Shown: positions 3,194 to 60,157 of the stretch, in pieces
How positions within the stretch are numbered: position 1 is the first letter of the stretch
Layout: every line of letters starts with the position of its first letter
Translations under genes and position numbers: made by a program
The notes under the pieces: generated by a model
Database searches by the model: none
What the model saw: only the letters and a program-made list of their open reading frames with translations
What the model was told of the DNA's origin: nothing
Assembly: GCF_000264995.1 (NCBI RefSeq)
Contig: NW_006767450.1
Span: 434,403 to 498,402, forward strand
Length of the DNA: 64,000 nt
Reading direction: 5' to 3'
Source: Punctularia strigosozonata HHB-11173 SS5
Taxonomy: Eukaryota; Basidiomycota; Agaricomycetes; Corticiales; Punctulariaceae

Positions 3194-4555
3194 ATGGCTG
3201 AAAACATCCTGGAATCTTTGACCGCCAGCAACATATTTGACCTTCAAGGTGTGGTTGCAGTGGTCACGGGAGGTGGTACGGTATGGTTTATCCCCGCCAT
3301 CATGCGCGTCGAGCCAAAGGATGGAATGCTTTCTTCAGGGAATAGGGCTCATGATCAGCTCGACCCTCGTAGCCAACGGCGCCACCGTCTACATCATTGG
3401 ACCCAAGCAAGATGATCTGGATAGGTTGATAGCTTTTTACTATCGTGCTACTCGACGTCTCTGATCCTTCGGTAGGATCGCCGAAGTGTACAACAAGGCA
3501 GCCGCAACCCAAGATGGGCGAGGCCGGATGCACGGAATCCAAGGCGACGTCAGAGAGAAATCGGAGGCTGTTAGACTTGCGTCAGAGGTTGCCAAGCGAG
3601 AACCTCATGTCACGATTCTCTTCAATAACGCTGGGTAAGTCGCCGCTGGTTTGCCCTCAGGTCTCGCGGGCTTCACTGATAGCATCCATGTTTCTCACAG
3701 CATACACCAAGGTCTAGCTCAAAGGCCTGCCGAGGCCACGGCCGCTGCCTTCATCGATGCCTACTTCGACCCCGTTACACAGGAACACTTCACCAATTCC
3801 ATAAACACCAACTCTGTCGGTTCGTCTCCACGATCTTCGCAGTTAGATCAGTAAACCGATTGATCGGTCCGAACGTGGTGTACACACCCACTCATACAGG
3901 CCCTTACTGGCTCACTTTCGCTTTTTTGCCTTTGCTTGAGAAATGGAAGGCAGACTCAAACCCTCTCAGCAAGAAGTTCGTCCCTCAGATCGTCATGACA
4001 AGCAGTATGAACGGATGGACAAAGGCACGCTTGCACACTGGATTCATCTCCTCCATCAATTGACTGACCATGGATAAAAGGATTCAGCCACCGGCGGCAA
4101 TTCCTTCCCTTACCTGTTCTCCAAATCAGCCATCGGACATGCAACGTCCTCGCTTGCGCACGAGCTTCTCCCGCTCGGTATCCGAGTGAACGGCATTGCT
4201 CCGGGTTGGTTCGTCACCGAGGTACCCCCTCAGTCCTGTTCTCTCCGTTTCATATTCTCAGTGCGTGAATTGGTGTTTAGATGTCTATGCCAGGAACAAT
4301 CGACTCCCTCGGCATTTCGCACGCGCCGCCCGACCACAAATTAAACTTCTCTGTCCCTACTGTGCCGACCGGCGGCACACCCCGCGACATGGGCACGCTC
4401 GCGCTCTTCTTGGTCGCCAACTGGTTTGTCAACGGCGAGACGGTGTTGATCGACGGTGGGGTGAGTGTATTTCATATCTGTCTGCCAATCGAAGCGCATG
4501 CTCATCAGCCTCTTCATACCTACAGACGCTGTTGAAGCACCCGAGTTCCTACTAG
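3194..4555 (+). CDS. Short-chain dehydrogenase/reductase
   Basis: Eight exons give a 308-residue protein: 3194-3280, 3339-3424, 3476-3634, 3701-3819, 3900-4024, 4081-4221, 4281-4460 and 4526-4555. They sum to whole codons. The Rossmann NAD(P)-binding glycine motif TGGGTGIG is split by intron 1. NNAG follows, then the catalytic region with ivMTSSMNGW and YLFSKSA (Tyr and Lys of the YxxxK motif), then RVNGIAPGW and a C-terminal NGETVLIDGG. This is a classical SDR; substrate and cofactor preference cannot be assigned. Intron 5 (4025-4080) starts with GC rather than GT. The gene lies beside an MFS carrier and an NRPS-like reductase, so a role in secondary metabolism is possible but unproven. Confidence 0.9.
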
Positions 4556-5064
4556 AAGTGAACTGGCAAGCGATGTCATCTTCATACGATTTGCCTTGCC
4601 GCGTTCGGTGTGCACTTCGCGGTGTCGATGCTACGTTCTTCGTATGATTGACCGAGGCACTTGTTCTGCCACCCAATTGTTTTATTTGTCATTAATCTGC
4701 GTCGATGATAACGATGATGAGATGAGACAACTATATTGAGGCAGGCGCTATACGGATACAAGCAATGCTACAGTCCGAGATACAGTAGGGTAGAAGGATC
4801 GTGAACGCCAGACTGCCAAGTCCGGACACATCTTGATTGATTGGATGCAGATATCACTATGGCAAAGCGAGTCAGTCGATATCTGGGCTGTAGAGCATAG
4901 TAGAGTACGATGTCAACGCGAACGTACAAGACAATAATGGGTATAACGGTAACCGGAAGTGCTTTCCGCCATCTTATTGTGCAACTTGGTGATCCTGATC
5001 CAGAAAAATATCAGTCACCTCTGTTTGCCCCGACCAGAGAGCGGGATCCTACCAGATGGCGATA
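4556..5064. other. Intergenic, convergent 3' flanks
   Basis: Between the SDR gene (plus) and the pheromone-like gene (minus). Both end here. No coding signal or RNA gene was recognised. Confidence 0.4.
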
Positions 5065-5238
5065 TTAGGCGATGATACAACACCCCACACAACCCTTCTT
5101 ATCGTAGTCGAACGGTGTTTCATCCTTCTCCTTCTCTCCTGACGCCGATTTCAAGTCCAGCTCGAAACCCGGCACGATAGATTCGGTAGTGGTTGCCATG
5201 AATAGCGCGGAGATGGTGGTACTCCTGAAGGAGTCCAT
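5065..5238 (-). CDS. Fungal mating-pheromone-like precursor (CaaX peptide)
   Basis: A 57-residue intronless frame. It begins MDSF, the usual opening of Agaricomycete lipopeptide pheromone precursors, and ends in C-I-I-A, a CaaX box that would direct farnesylation of the last Cys, removal of three residues and carboxyl methylation. ATG 5238 is the only ATG upstream in frame. Length matches the family (about 50-60 residues). Before the CaaX box the tail reads FDYDKKGCVGC, so a second Cys pair lies close by. The usual internal cleavage pair (ER or EH) is not obvious; an acidic stretch EKEKDE near residue 36 is the best candidate. A TATA-like ctataagaac lies on the minus strand near 5362-5371. 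No STE3-type receptor is in the window, so this is probably outside the mating-type locus. It could instead be another short prenylated peptide. Confidence 0.65.
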   Translation of the reverse strand: MDSFRSTTISALFMATTTESIVPGFELDLKSASGEKEKDETPFDYDKKGCVGCCIIA

Positions 5239-6238
5239 GATGACCGGAGTTGCAGCAGTCCGCAAGAGGTTCAGTGGCGAGGGGAGGGAGGGTGAGTATG
5301 TGGCTCAGGGAATACAAGAAACGGGAAACTTGTCTGACTTGTCTGGCAGCTGAAGCGTTCTTATAGTCTTGTGTATCCACGGGCGCACCTCAAGTCATGA
5401 CCGTTACAATTGCACGGAGCGCAACCCGGATCCGAGCGCCGGTGACGTCCGAGAGACATTGTCCCGTCGCCAGCTCCGTCCTCTGAGTTTAGCTACGCGA
5501 GGTGGAGGCCGGTATGGAACCTTCAGTGCGCGGCCCATCGTCAACGTCCACACAAAAACCAAGTCCGGATATGGAAGGAGGCGGTCCGGGGAGGGTTTTT
5601 GTGTGTTGCCGCGCGCACCGACTGCGTGCGCCTTTTGTGCGATCTTTATACAGTATTCTTTGCCAAAGCGCGATTATCAGGCATCGCACACACCCCGTGT
5701 TCAGCATCGTGCAGGAGGACAAGAGGCGCATTCGGCTGAGTTGCGCGTATGAGCGCATTTCCGAATCCTAAAGGCACTTCGACGTAATCGATGCTCCCCG
5801 CCATGCAGAATTTATGACTTGTCCGATTGACTTTTGAAGAATCCCAGAACCCGAATATGTCGAGGTTCAACTGTACGAGTTCCAGCAGCCGCAAACGTCA
5901 GGATCAAACCGTCAGGAGAGAAAGTCAGGTCGCAAGACGCAAGGCTTTCCAAGAAAAGAACCGTGAACTTGGGAACACGTTGCATGATATGACAATTGAC
6001 TGCGCACGGCCTGCGGCAGCCAGCGGCAGCCGGCCATGAGCGACGCGGACCGGGCGGGAAAGACGAACGATATGAGCGCCACGTGCCAGAAGGCGGTGGC
6101 AGAGACAACGCCCCCGCGTTATCGCAGGCGGCCAACTCGGTGTGTACTCACCACACCAATCATATCCACCCCTCCTGCTTTGTTCCTCGTCTATCCCACT
6201 GCGCAGGAACAGAGAGGGGTGTTTGCGGAAGCTCCAGG
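5239..6238. promoter_or_regulatory. Divergent intergenic region of 1 kb
   Basis: Lies between the pheromone-like gene (minus) and the MFS carrier (plus). Apart from the TATA-like element near 5365 on the minus strand, I recognise no structured element. The open frames here are short and mutually overlapping and look like chance. Confidence 0.4.
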
Positions 6239-8561
6239 ATGGCCCAACCCCACCACCCGCGCTTGCTGAGTACTCCTCGGCTTGTTACCTTCGTTGTGTC
6301 TATTCTCGTCGCACTTGGGTCCGGAACAAACTATGTGTGTGCTTTTGCAAGTGCCAGCTAGCAACCAGAGCTCTTGACTCATATGACTCCATTCTGCCCA
6401 TTCCGTGAACTCCGGTGTACTAGGTTTTCTCTGGTCAGTTATTATTTGCCTGAGAATGCACGGTATTCACTCAATCATCTTATCACGAAACGTGTCACTG
6501 TCGTTCTCATTCTTCTCTTCGCCCTCAATCAGCCTACGCGCCACAACTGGGCTCGCGCCTCCGCATCAGCCACACACAGTTGAATATCATCGGTCTCGCA
6601 GGCAATGGTACGCTGCAGCACCTGCCATCCATGTCATGGCCGACCGAATGACCGCTGCCCATCACAGTGGGTGTATATAGCACCGCCCCTATATGGGGTC
6701 GGATAGCCGACCTCAAGGGTCCTCGAATGCTGCTATGTATTGCATTCGTCGGTTTGCTGCTGGGCTATTCCGGAATACGCCACATATACGACGCTGGATT
6801 GCCAACTCAGGCCGATTCTTGTCAGTGCCTCTTCGTGGTTGACTCGCAAGAGAGCTGACGGAGTTGGCGTTCACGGAACAGCTACGAAGGCGGCGTTACC
6901 TGGCCTCACTTTCTGGATCCTTGCTTTTTGCAACTTCCTCAGCGGTGTTGGCGGGAATGGCGGGCTCTGCTCCGCCCTTAACGTTACAGCGAGGAACTTC
7001 CCCGACTCTCACGTACGTCTTCCACCGCAAGGTTACAGGACGGCCGATGCTTAGGATTGTATCCAGCGTGCGGCTGCCACGGGGATCGTCATATCAGGTT
7101 TCGGTCTCTCCGCGTTCTTCTTCTCAACCATCGCCCACACCTTATTCCCGGGCAACACATCCGATTTTTTACTCGTACTCGCACTTGGGACATCTATCCC
7201 CATGGTCCTCGGACTATTCTTCCTCCGATACATCCCGCTTCCCGCTACCACGACCGCGCTCGAGCACGGACCCGCTTCCGCAGAGGAGCAAGAAAGCCTG
7301 GTGATCCACGGGCCCCCGGAAGTGGAACGTGCCAACAGTCGCACCCGTCTCCTCTCACCTGCTGCCGTGGAGACAGAGGTCGCTGACGAGGAGGAGGTTC
7401 CGCATGTTCACCACCAGCAGGTGTCCTCTCACTTCCAGTTCCCGCACACCAGAAATTCGGTGGAGATGAGCGTTAGCCCGACGCGGGACGGCCATCGTCG
7501 CTCTGCTAGCGCGCGCACGCGTCGATCTCGGAGCAAGAGCAAAGAGATACCAGTGAAGGACGTAGACGGTCCAAACATCCATGGCAAGGCTCTTGCCTTC
7601 GCACCTGACTTCTGGCTTCTCTTCTGCTTTATGTCCCTGTGTAAGCTCTTTTATGCAACCTTGTCATGACTGCTCATAAGAATTCATCAGTGAGTGGGAC
7701 CGGCCTCATGTGTGAGTCAGCCTCACACGACCGTACCCGCGGCTTCTCTCATGACTCCCGTAGATATCAACAACGTGGGATCCATATCGCAGGCCTTGTT
7801 CGCACAAGGAAACCCGGATTACGATGAGACTATGGCCTCGCAGTGGCAATCGGTCCAAGTATCCGCCATCAGCATCACTAACTGTCTTGGTCGGATTGTC
7901 ATCGGTACTGCTTCTTTGTCTCTCCCGCCTTTGGTGCTGAGTAAGGCGATACATAGGCTTCACCGCCGACTTCACGAAGTACAGTCTGCAACAACAGCGA
8001 TCCACGTGCCTAACATTGGTCGCAGCGCTCCTGCTTGTATCACAGCTGGCTTGTCTTGCCATCACCGACGTGTCGGATTTGTGGAAAGCAAGCGCCCTCC
8101 TTGGGTTCGGATACGGCAGCATGTTCGGTCTTGTCCCGACGATCGCCATCGAGTGGTTCGGTCTTCGTGAGTCCACACGCGCTTGCTCCTCGCATTCGGG
8201 ACGCGCGCTGACCAGAGGTGTGATCCCAGCCCATTTCTCCGAAAACTGGGGCTTCCTCTCGCTCTCGCCCCTCCTCGGCGGCAACCTCTTCTCGCTCGCA
8301 TTCGGGCGCAACCTCGACGCGCACGCCTCTCCCGGATCGCCGTCCACCTCGCAGCCGGCGTCACTTCTGCGGCGCGCGGGACTCCCCGCAGACGCGCAGT
8401 GCTTCGACGGGAGAAGCTGCTACGAAGCTAGTCTGCACATGACCATCGCGGCGTGCACGGCTGCTCTGGGAATTGCTATATGGCTCGGGGTGAGGGACCG
8501 GAGGAAACTCAGGGAATCCGCCGCCTCCGAGCGTGAGGTTGTGTGGGCCGAGGAGAACTGA
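6239..8561 (+). CDS. MFS transporter, nodulin-like/MCH1 type
   Basis: Ten exons give 580 residues: 6239-6334, 6424-6433, 6533-6607, 6668-6820, 6882-7012, 7067-7640, 7691-7711, 7764-7904, 7957-8166 and 8230-8561. They sum to whole codons. The family signature GTNYVFSAYAPQLG near residues 29-42 is only restored by splicing in a 10-base exon; a second tiny exon has 21 bases. A first membrane half follows (GLAGNVGVYSTAPIWGRIAD and FLSGVGGNGG), then a long hydrophilic loop rich in Ser, Arg and His (about residues 240-335), then a second membrane half. This arrangement matches fungal MCH1-like carriers, grouped with monocarboxylate permease homologs without proven monocarboxylate transport. Substrate unknown. 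It stands between the pheromone-like gene and the NRPS-like gene. Confidence 0.85.
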
Positions 8562-27485: not shown

Positions 27486-30400
27486 TCAGATCCCCAAATG
27501 GATGTACGGCGCCCATCGACTAGGGTCGGGATGCTCTCGGCGTAGCTGCTGCACAGCCGCATCGAGCGCGTAAGGGATGTCGTCCGGGTCGAGGGCCTCC
27601 GAATCGCCGCCGAATACACTCTTGTATACTGAGTGCGCGATTGCTGGGCCGTCGACATCTTCCATAGACCTGAGCAGGCGTGGTAAGTAAGATCAGATTA
27701 TCAGATCCTGACCGTATTTTCAGGTGTGCTCACCAGAGCGTTGCAATCACGCTCTTGAAACCCGCGAACAACATGGTGGCAGCAAGGTGGACGGTTTGGT
27801 CCGGTTGGTTCTACAAGGTGCGTATTGAGTTCCTGTCTAAGGTCAGGCTGTGACATAGCTGACCTTATCTCCTTTGGCGGTCTCACAGGCGCTCAAGAAC
27901 GCCATGAATGCGTGCGGAAGCGGTGTCAGCATCAACCTCTCGATCGTGAGCATCTCGTCCCGCATCACGAACCCACTTTTGAGCGGATTGACTGGATCCT
28001 GGTAGCCGTGGCATGCGAGGTGCAATATCGTTGCCTCGGGTAAACTGTCGAGCAAGGCCCGGGCCGTGATTCCGCTCACTTCTCCAGCTCCTCCCTCGTC
28101 CGCAGATGCTACTGCGACTAACTTCGCATTCGCAGGCAGTGACGCCCGAACAACAAGAGCTTCATCGCTTGCAGACGCTAATTCGCGCCAATTTGAATGG
28201 GGAACCGCAGCGATCAGTGCTCGAACATCACGCTTTTCCACAGGGGTGTGCGTTGCCCTTGCCGCAATCAGGGCACCGAGTGTCGGGGTATAGGAAGATA
28301 CTACGTAATCCGAGCACCAGCTGTCGTCAGCCCCTGCCGCGTGCAAGGGAAGATGAACGAAGGGCCCTGTGGGACACCACCATATTCGGGGGCGGTCTCG
28401 ATCGAGAGAGGGCTACGAAAACGGTCGGTCTCGACGTCATACAGTAGGTCAAGTCTCGTACCTCAATCTCTAGCGACCTCAGTATTGGCCCAACTGCAGT
28501 CACCCATAGGTGTCGTAAAATGTCCACAGTATTTCGGCACGGCAGTGTGGATAATGGTCGTTGCTGTGACACTTTCAGACGGTCCCGCAAAGTTGAGCGA
28601 GTTTCTGTCACTACCGAACGCCATGAAATGCCCGACTGGACCACCCAATCCTCTGTAATTTGGGCAAGTGGCAGGCTGTTGATTTGACCATATGGTTTGA
28701 TGATAATGGCATGGCACGCCAGCTTGCTAGACACAAGCACAACAACGGGACCCCGTTCTGCGACCTTCGCCAATGCAGGGAACTCGTCGTGCAGTAAGAA
28801 CCGTCCCAGTCCGGGGAGATCACGGACCTCGCTTAATAAGGTATCAAATTCCTCGCTTTGTCGCCTCCTGCGAGCTGCTTCTGCATCCACTGCCCGCTGA
28901 TCTTGAACCGCCTCTGACGGTTCACTGGATCGTTCTAGCTGCCGAGCAAGGCTTGACAGACGGTCACGGAGCTCCCCTGGTACGGCATCGAATGGAGAGC
29001 GTAGACGGAGGCTGTGCGTCCAGAAGATGGCGCGCCCTTGCTCGAGGATCTCAAGTGCCTTCTCTGGCCCCTGAAGATTGAGTGCGTAGACCGCGCCCAT
29101 GTTCGCTATCTTCTGGCTGGCCTTCAGGGACTCAAGCCGGGATTGTGGCTGCAGCCCCAGGAGCGCTACACGGGGCAACAAACCGATGACCCTAGAGCAG
29201 ATGTCCAGGAGCTGGGATTGAATCGACTGGTCTGAGGAGGAGATACTCTTTCGTCCGTCTGAGTGGATGATATTGAGTATCCGTGCGGCGTCTTGAATGC
29301 GTGATCGTGGGTCCCTGTTATCCTCCGCCAATGCATCTGACAAATGCTTCAATGAGAGGGAGAGATTGCGGTATGGTGTGCCTTGCTCCATATATAATTC
29401 GGCAGTATCAAGGAGCCACTCGTATCGCTCTCTATAACCTACACGCACCGTCGATGAGTAAGTGACCATGATCTCTAATGCATGAAGTGCGTCATGGTCG
29501 TTGTGAGCCAGGCGAAATCGCGTCAAATGGCAAGCAGCAAGGGTACGGAGGCATCCCAGACGATTTGGGCGATGTGACACGGTATCTGCAACCGGTTCCA
29601 GCACGGCAATGGCCCGATCAATGTCTGCGAGATCGTTAACATGGCGACCACGAAGAAGGAGTGTCTTCGAAAGCACGTATATTGCATCCAGTGTATTGGC
29701 ATGCTCCGAAGACAATGAATTTAGCAACTCCTCCGCGCGTGGTATGGCTTCCTCCAGGTCTTTCGTGGTACCGAGAGACTCGAATCGGGTGCACAAGTGT
29801 GATATCATAGTGACAACGGTTGTGGGGAAGGATGCATCGGTAGGAGAAATCAACTTCATGACACGACGATCCCATTGAAGTGCTTCGGTCAAGTTGGCGA
29901 TATCACCGGTCTCTGCGAACCGGAGAACCAACATTTCCGCTAGGATGCGGGCAGGATGCGATTGTCGAGGATGATTGTGCAGAAGCTCTGCAGCCTGACG
30001 GCTCGTCTGGATTGCCTCTTCCAGATCGTTGTGTCTGCCGTATCGAACAAATTGCATGTACAACCCCACCGACAAACGGAACAGCGGAAGCCACGTTGAT
30101 TGACCACCGATGTGTGACTGCTGTAGATGATAGATTTCTCGCCACATTGCGACCATCTCCTCCAGATCATTTTCTTCTGGCGATCCCGTAAGCTGATACC
30201 GCAGATAGAGGAGAGTTGCTGTGGCATCCATCACATGCCTCCGTGCAGCGCTATTCTGAGGACATGCATTGATAGTTTTTCGCCCAAGGCATATGTCCTC
30301 GTTGAGACGGTTATCAACCCTGCCGGATTGGTAGGATCGACGATAGGTGAGAGAAAGTACAGTGGACACCAGGTTTGGTCTTTCAATATGCAACGGAGGG

Positions 30401-31270
30401 CAGAGTTGGGTCGCATCAGCAATGACACGACAGGCTTCATCCATATCTCGAGACTCTCCCGAATAGTCGTGTCGAGTAAACAAGTACCAGCCTAGAGAGT
30501 GCAGATGCAGGTGTTTGCTAGGGTCTTCCGCCGATATCGCGTCCAGTGCTTGTCGTTGCAATTCCACAGCTTCGTTGATGAAAGTGCCATCCATGGTTGC
30601 GCCGAAATAACCCCTTAGCACCTTTGCAAGGCCACGATATGCAGATGCTCGCAACGGATGTCCGATGCCACATAAGAGGACGGCATCTCGATAGAGTGCT
30701 TCGATGTCTCGATAAGCAGTATGGTGATATGACGTGTCAGCTGGATGGTCAATCTGGGTGAAGCTGTGAAGGACATCGGCGTGCAGTATCAAAATAGTGG
30801 GGCAAGATATTCGCTCCGCACGACATGTTTCCAGAGCGGCTTGGCTGTGCCGCAGAGCAGACTGTATATCGCTGATATCCGAGGTAAATAAATAACGGTG
30901 GTGCAGTATGCGGGCCAGATATATAAGTGCGTGATACCGTTTTATCCGAACGTGGGATGGCTCCTCGAAATCGGCGTGTACTTGACGTGGATATTGTTCA
31001 GGAGGTGGCGTTTTCCCGTCTTCGGTGACCAGTAGAAGTGATTGGTAAATATCGATGCTCTTCTGCGCTGCCTCGAGGTCGCTGTCCCGAATATACTGTT
31101 CAAAAAATCGCAGACCTTCGGCGCAGCATCCGAGTGGTGTCGGAGGAGGGACTGTCGGCATCAATGCATACGTAAATCCAAACTTTATACAGATGAAGTT
31201 CGGAGAACATACCGGCCGCACACTCGCACTGGGTCACTGAATTGGATGCGAATCCATCACTGTCTGTCAT
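27486..31270 (-). CDS. TPR-CHAT protein (caspase-fold)
   Basis: Five exons (31270-31213, 31151-28462, 28412-27864, 27810-27734, 27669-27486) sum to whole codons and give 1,185 residues. Most of residues 20-800 is helical repeat of TPR type, with lines such as AVELQRQALDAI, HLHSLGWYLFTRHDYSG and EAIPRAEELLNSL. The C-terminal part is a CHAT domain: RIWWCPTGPFVHLPLHAAG, then the His motif ILHLACHGYQDP, then the Cys motif AFLSACETAKGD, and LAATMLFAGFKSVIATLW near the end. The paired His and Cys of the caspase/separase-like fold are both present, so it may be an active cysteine protease; this is inferred. In fungi such proteins are linked to recognition and cell-death systems, but target and trigger are unknown. 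A TATA box lies about 170 bases upstream. Confidence 0.9.
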
Positions 31271-46681: not shown

Positions 46682-48129
<1,448 letters not shown>

Positions 48130-48967: not shown

Positions 48968-50507
<1,540 letters not shown>

Positions 50508-58682: not shown

Positions 58683-59259
58683 ATACCTCATCGTACTCCT
58701 CGTCATAGTGCTCCGCGGATTCTCTGTCTCTTATCCTTATCATTTCTCTCTGCACATATACCGTTTCGGTCTTCTTGGTGACATCAATGGTTCCATTGCT
58801 CGCTGCCGCTGTTCGATGTACCCTTCGACATGATCATCTCCCTTTGTGGATGCATGACAATACACTCGTGGCCGTTCATACCAACGATCCATGGACATGG
58901 TCCTCGCGATGTGCCCCGCGCAAGAAGACACGGGCAGTCGCACAAAATTAGCCCAAGGTATGTCATCGAATTCGCGAATACATTGCACAATGATGCGGGA
59001 GACACTGAGCGCAGAGAGATACATGACGCTGTTATAACATTCCATTCCATTGCCCGACCCAGACCCATCCCGGAGCGTCGACAACAAACTTGAAATTCCT
59101 AAGAAAAACTCAACATTCAGTAAAGCGCGTTCGTCACCTAGAGAGATGTGTGTCAGTGAGGGAGTTGGGGTGAGATGCACGCGCCCGACTGTGTTCGCAA
59201 TTCGGGCGCGCGCTCTCCGGGGGCACGAGGGCCGAGAGTCAAAGATACCGCGAACATCA
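58683..59259. repeat. Left copy of a direct repeat flanking the sequence gap
   Basis: This 577-base segment is repeated almost base for base at 59582-60157, the other side of the N run. The only difference seen is one base near the end (cgcaattcggg against cgcaatcggg). Minus-strand open frames of about 95-160 residues cross both copies, but none has a domain, so no gene is called. The identity and position next to the gap suggest one locus assembled twice. Confidence 0.8.
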
Positions 59260-59581: not shown

Positions 59582-60157
59582 TACCTCATCGTACTCCTCG
59601 TCATAGTGCTCCGCGGATTCTCTGTCTCTTATCCTTATCATTTCTCTCTGCACATATACCGTTTCGGTCTTCTTGGTGACATCAATGGTTCCATTGCTCG
59701 CTGCCGCTGTTCGATGTACCCTTCGACATGATCATCTCCCTTTGTGGATGCATGACAATACACTCGTGGCCGTTCATACCAACGATCCATGGACATGGTC
59801 CTCGCGATGTGCCCCGCGCAAGAAGACACGGGCAGTCGCACAAAATTAGCCCAAGGTATGTCATCGAATTCGCGAATACATTGCACAATGATGCGGGAGA
59901 CACTGAGCGCAGAGAGATACATGACGCTGTTATAACATTCCATTCCATTGCCCGACCCAGACCCATCCCGGAGCGTCGACAACAAACTTGAAATTCCTAA
60001 GAAAAACTCAACATTCAGTAAAGCGCGTTCGTCACCTAGAGAGATGTGTGTCAGTGAGGGAGTTGGGGTGAGATGCACGCGCCCGACTGTGTTCGCAATC
60101 GGGCGCGCGCTCTCCGGGGGCACGAGGGCCGAGAGTCAAAGATACCGCGAACATCAT
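59582..60157. repeat. Right copy of the direct repeat flanking the gap
   Basis: Matches 58683-59259 throughout apart from one deleted base. The right copy continues into unique sequence (ccgtgcacaacgatatccgc), which the left copy would have entered had the N run not begun. Confidence 0.8.

Follow-up and report, generated by a model that had tools for sequence, protein, structure and literature searches.

A probable unlinked lipopeptide pheromone precursor gene with two extra cysteines in Punctularia strigosozonata

The window, which is the whole 64-kb stretch of DNA analysed here (C18:434403-498402), is part of the 33.57-Mb genome of Punctularia strigosozonata, assembled in 32 contigs. On its minus strand, positions 5065-5238 translate as MDSFRSTTISALFMATTTESIVPGFELDLKSASGEKEKDETPFDYDKKGCVGCCIIA (57 amino acids, stop codon TAA), and the first frame of the plus strand over the same positions is interrupted by stops. 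The translation confirms the original prediction of a 57-residue frame running from MDSF to CIIA. The precursor has an MD[SA]F-type N-terminus, its CaaX box CIIA (residues 54-57; 5068-5079, minus strand) sits directly ahead of the stop codon, and its length falls inside the limit given for short precursors (up to about 100 amino acids; PMC4101180). The start codon had been described as the only in-frame ATG, which is wrong, since codon 14 (5197-5199, minus strand) is a second one, from which a 44-amino-acid frame would begin. The CVGCC cluster reported to precede the CaaX box is present at residues 50-54 (5077-5091, minus strand), and comprises Cys50, Cys53 and the putative prenyl acceptor Cys54. 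As a single query against the protein database the frame gave zero matches, and for this reason it seems to be unannotated. To its left, positions 4281-4463 give a weak match to the short-chain dehydrogenase-type family PF13561 (E 0.00093; 19.3 bits, where 27 is the curated cut-off). The frame on its right, at 7202-7669, has no Pfam match. Elsewhere in the window lie an open frame of 964 amino acids (28327-31221, minus strand), two adjoining and very similar open reading frames that look actin-like by eye (47063-47782 and 49388-50077), and one 50-amino-acid frame that occurs twice, about 900 bases apart (58740-58892 and 59638-59790), forming a direct repeat next to masked sequence.

The genome contains several mutually similar copies of this gene, namely a group of five composed of the window gene, C2:296986, C2:309885, C24:196681 and C24:199818, whose alignment shows a common head, MD[SA]F, and a common tail, P-x-[DEN]-Y-D-x-x-G-x-x-G-x-C-x-x-A. 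A 29-place pattern for the tail (AARGG...TGYNTNATHGC) found four matches in the genome versus none for the reversed control; C24:199818, the fifth member, deviates from this pattern. The absence of a clear ER or EH cleavage site, as originally described, holds for those two dipeptides, but an acidic alternative, D39-E40 (5119-5124, minus strand), is a candidate N-terminal processing site, because an aspartate plus one residue occurs at equal spacing in three of the four paralogues, C24:199818 being one residue shorter. An acidic site thus stands 14 residues ahead of the prenyl cysteine in four of the five members. The predicted mature 14-mer TPFDYDKKGCVGCC (residues 41-54; 5077-5118, minus strand) coincides with the block P-x-[DEN]-Y-D-x-x-G-x-x-G-x-C that is conserved in all five.

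Chance controls and profile tests both single out the window frame. Frames of 30-110 amino acids that start with M and end in C[ILVM][ILVM][ASMCQT] number one in the window (mean of 0.26 in 150 first-order Markov versions of it), and an MD[SAVT]F...CaaX frame of the same length range, of which the real window has one, occurs in 0 of the 150 simulated windows. With a profile built from the other four group members, the frame comes out on top among 1,760 frames running from stop to stop (20-200 amino acids), with an E-value of 8.8e-8 (the next being 0.08); with three outside relatives added to the profile the value is 4.9e-11, and with eleven outside relatives alone it is 2.8e-8. Conservation of the head, the tail and the CaaX box was checked in the paralogues and in database proteins, and is found in both.

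Searching the protein database with the five-member alignment gave 17 hits at E <= 10, of which P0018-P0024 are weak (E 0.18 to 3.5). Fourteen of these relatives (P0010-P0016 and P0018-P0024, eight of them named Mycena) are built of two repeated units each, with the first one ending in C-V-V-C or C-I-V-C (C-V-I-F in P0010), mostly followed by (R/K)-E-D. P0011-P0016 and P0018-P0024 resemble the window gene in their tail, G-S-S-G-S-C-V-I-A, and in their MD[AS]F head, which in P0016 and P0018-P0020 comes after an N-terminal extension, while P0024 continues beyond the tail. They differ from the window gene in having the two units with the internal C-V-V-C or C-I-V-C, and in carrying serine where it has its extra cysteines. 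A further hit, the gene model PUNSTDRAFT_130482 (P0008), is identical over its first 44 residues to the C2:309885 precursor and gives that precursor (C2:309882-310028) another C-terminus instead of the CaaX tail. This exchange of tails, apparently made via a predicted intron, is likely to be either an error of the model or a splice form without a prenyl site.

The genome search that had been suggested, for STE3 homologs and for other MDSF...CaaX frames, located the receptors on contig C12 and found 12 pheromone-type precursors, the latter number being a lower bound. The STE3 model (PF02076, E <= 0.001) has 25 exon matches, all on C12 between 141,735 and 199,840, and their positions suggest about eight genes; these match counts are likewise lower bounds. 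The same search has no match in the window or anywhere on C18, which bears out the earlier claim that no STE3-type receptor is nearby. Homeodomain matches (PF05920) number four, on C1, C2 and C11, with none on C18. Three of the precursors lie among the C12 receptors (C12:183240, about C12:184850 on the minus strand, and C12:189696; hereafter the MAT-B precursors). The other nine lie elsewhere: C2:296986, C2:309885, C24:196681, C24:199818, C24:201296, C3:2684545, C3:2685785, C22:95100 and the window gene. The window gene is therefore not linked to the STE3 receptor genes in the sense that it lies off the receptor contig, a status defined at contig level, as C18 and C12 might still belong to one chromosome. 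The missing neighbour, which had been presented as a surprise, is the rule in this genome, where 9 of 12 precursors lie off the receptor contig, and genes of this kind have been described before.

Only C12:183240 was found by the Pfam pheromone model (PF08015) at E <= 0.001, and the others were recovered by querying with the protein sequences of the window frame and of two paralogues, by tail patterns and by scanning the receptor and precursor loci. The tail pattern C[IVM]IA gave 47 matches versus 16 in the control. Ten of these end in TGG, which is not a stop; the remaining 37 were all examined, 32 of them over stretches extending about 300 bases upstream, and nine gave an MD[SA]F frame. Another seven gave M-starting frames with other heads, which we take to be chance. 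The pattern C[IVM]VA gave 57 matches versus 57 in the control; 17 end in TGG, and ten of the other 40 were examined, of which C12:183240 and C24:199818 proved to be precursors. The last of the twelve, on C12, ends in CIIS and came from the receptor loci, CaaX types other than C[IVM][IVM]A having been covered within the receptor and precursor loci only. The head pattern gave 223 matches, of which the first places were examined. Two clusters stand out among the precursors. Contig C24, which is without a receptor match, carries three pheromone-like precursors in 5 kb (C24:196681-201421). On C3, the neighbouring precursors at 2684545-2684736 and 2685785-2685973 contain two pheromone units each, with an internal ...TQTYCVIA, then R-T, then a second ...TQTYCVIA as the end, so that the last CaaX box alone is terminal. 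Repeated units with CaaX-like motifs have been reported in red yeasts and for HPP1 of Trichoderma.

The precursor genes also have promoter elements in common. Words were counted in the 260 bases upstream of each of the twelve genes, with 3,000 stretches of the window as background. The top pentamers were ACAAT (12 of 12 genes) and TATAA (9 of 12), and the top hexamers ACAATA and ATTGTC (9 of 12 each). ACAAT or ATTGT thus occurs within 260 bases upstream of every precursor gene (mean of 3.83 genes in dinucleotide shuffles, with 0 of 500 reaching 12), ACAATA in nine (mean 0.89) and GACAAT in nine (mean 1.21), neither of which any of the 500 shuffles reaches; in eight genes, the window gene included, a TATA-like hexamer lies between -140 and -80 (mean 0.33; 0 of 500 reach eight). 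These shuffle figures are flattering, because the sequences tested are also those from which the words were chosen. In a fairer test, with the words taken from the other eleven genes, the window gene has three of the five top pentamers (ACAAT, TATAA and GACAA) and one of the five top hexamers (ATTGTC); it is without ACAATA, which nine of the eleven others have, and without the heptamer GACAATA, which six of them have. By hexamer placement and word counts, its own elements, all on the minus strand, are a TATA-like TATAAG 127 bases upstream of the ATG (5360-5365), an ATTGT element 172 bases upstream (5406-5410) and a GACAAT element 225 bases upstream (5458-5463). HMG-box proteins that regulate pheromone genes recognise elements of the ATTGT type. 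Downstream of the frame, a candidate 3′-UTR intron with a weak donor, GTAGGA, can be drawn at 4995-5052 (minus strand), which is suggestive only. It follows a sequence rule of our own, which requires a donor shortly beyond the stop codon together with a branch-like site and an acceptor, and five of the seven genes with enough downstream sequence, the window gene included, conform to that rule, a count that was made without a chance control. For comparison, at least three Agaricus pheromone-like genes give transcripts with an intron in the 3′ untranslated region (PMC8305134).

Taken together, these observations make it probable that the window gene codes for the precursor of a lipopeptide pheromone and belongs to the unlinked, non-mating-type class. 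The original description as a pheromone-like CaaX precursor, possibly non-mating, is upheld by the paralogues, by the promoter elements and by two database relatives scoring above the 22-bit cut-off of the Pfam pheromone model (24.4 bits for P0009, which comes from a JGI source, and 24.0 bits for P0011 of Mycena latifolia), and the appeal to a new prenylated signal is unneeded. Against this reading stands the Pfam result itself, as the window protein has no match at E up to 10, whereas the four paralogues do match, if below the cut-off (18.9, 19.8, 14.2 and 16.3 bits), as do P0010, P0017, P0021 and P0022 (11.8, 18.2, 21.4 and 16.9 bits). Among the MAT-B precursors, C12:183240 passes (36 bits), and the other two score 14.9 and 15.8 bits, the latter having been scanned without its first Met. 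The cut-off is a detection threshold and does not define the class biologically; because two of the three MAT-B precursors miss it as the four paralogues do, it does not decide membership among pheromone precursors. Two further readings, an exon of a larger gene and the tail of a G-gamma protein, were rejected, as promoter elements and the head motif precede the frame and a domain match is lacking.

By analogy with known pheromone biology, the precursor would be prenylated, cleaved, exported and paired with a receptor as follows. Cys54 would be farnesylated, the residues IIA removed and the new end carboxymethylated. A cut near D39-E40 would release TPFDYDKKGCVGCC, a peptide of about 14 residues, whose length would lie within the reported mature range of 9-14 residues (PMC4101180), and DE is among the charged dipeptide motifs listed in PMC8305134. 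The mature lipopeptide TPFDYDKKGCVGCC would then be exported and may have as its receptor one of the STE3-type proteins that C12 encodes in trans, probably one without a tie to mating specificity. In Schizophyllum, self-pheromones have been considered as possible ligands of two orphan receptors of the non-mating kind (PMC8161036).

The CVGCC cluster is the one real oddity of an otherwise largely ordinary gene. At the places of Cys50 and Cys53, serine is found in 20 of 20 relatives, that is, in the four other group members and in 16 of 16 database hits (the last unit of P0009-P0024, with P0008 left out as the C2 gene in a different splice model), a sample biased in that the database hits were retrieved with the group's own sequences as queries and that P0018-P0024, seven in all, are weak. 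In the first unit of P0010, alanine stands at the second of the two places. In third-position GC, too, the window gene stands apart, being with 0.68 the lowest of the five, against 0.80-0.94 in the four paralogues. These features, which count against the pheromone reading, could mark a decaying duplicate, namely a former pheromone-like gene whose frame is still open, which is weakly or not at all expressed, and in which the two changes from serine to cysteine are neutral drift. The lack of ACAATA, the weak intron donor and the lack of any Pfam match where the paralogues at least score below threshold all point the same way, as does the fact that no database entry was found for the frame, while other proteins from this genome do have one. 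However, the frame, the CaaX box, the head motif, the TATA-like site and the GACAAT and ATTGT elements are all intact, and the three MAT-B precursors are comparably low in third-position GC (0.56-0.71). On balance we regard decay as unlikely, though it deserves to be taken seriously.

The same two cysteines may be read in another way. If Cys50 and Cys53 were palmitoylated beside a farnesylated Cys54, the product could be a membrane-tethered signal that is not released and acts in contact or intracellularly. The cysteines are peculiar to the window gene among the relatives compared, and yeast Ste18 shows the same arrangement, with a palmitoylated C106 beside a farnesylated C107 (PMC7403958). 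However, palmitoylation is here a conjecture from sequence, the cysteine pair occurs in one gene only, and the remainder of the protein matches neither the G-gamma nor the GTPase families, so that tethering seems quite improbable. It is tempting to speculate further that, through the two substitutions, a non-mating pheromone that used to be released became a membrane-tethered peptide with both farnesyl and palmitoyl groups, signalling by contact or inside the hypha, which we consider a long shot. To our knowledge, a tethered pheromone-derived signal has not been described in mushrooms, and we know of no study that by its title joins pheromones with palmitoylation. Drift in a decaying copy and dual lipidation both fit Cys50 and Cys53, and drift is the simpler. 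A chance frame without function, for which its shortness and the failure of single-sequence searches might speak, is scarcely credible in view of the simulated windows (0 of 150), the profile E-value of 8.8e-8 and the common promoter elements.

As a probable non-mating pheromone precursor, the window gene bears on a wider question. Mushroom genomes contain STE3-like receptors without a known ligand and pheromone-like genes without a known receptor, and the function of the STE3-like receptors is stated to be open (PMC8305134; PMC8161036). Having at least nine precursors besides the MAT-B three, with promoter elements in common, this genome offers a clean set for direct tests of ligand-receptor pairing. 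Within that set, the window gene is a natural two-residue change that could show whether extra cysteines alter the release of a prenylated peptide. In the portions of the literature on P. strigosozonata and pheromones that were accessible, no treatment of the pheromones of this species was found.

Compared with known systems, the MAT-B precursors of the same genome share with the window gene the head motif, the size, a CaaX-type end and the ACAAT/ATTGT and TATA-like elements; by contrast, they lie amid STE3 genes and encode different mature peptides. The tail of yeast Ste18 has a cysteine immediately ahead of the CaaX cysteine (PMC7403958), as does the window precursor (CC, residues 53-54), but it is a different protein, and a Pfam search finds no GTPase or G-gamma domain in the window protein. 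The closest parallels are found in other mushrooms. The precursors of Pycnoporus cinnabarinus (39-65 amino acids), where similar presumed non-mating-type precursors are reported and the receptor genes derive from EST contigs (PMC4101180), and those of Agaricus (44-54 amino acids; PMC8305134) resemble the window gene in having an MD head, a CaaX tail and several similar copies. Agaricus bisporus has four pheromone-like genes, three at one position on chromosome 1 and one on chromosome 2; these genes are G-rich and lie away from the mating-type locus, the chromosome-1 trio being only loosely linked to it, at over 50 cM (PMC8305134). The consensus sequences GGGSGNGAYC and GGGSGNNAYC reported for Coprinopsis and Laccaria differ from TPFDYDKKGCVGCC, which has two extra cysteines. 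Thus, unlinked pheromone-like precursors are already known in mushrooms, and the window gene adds one more to them.
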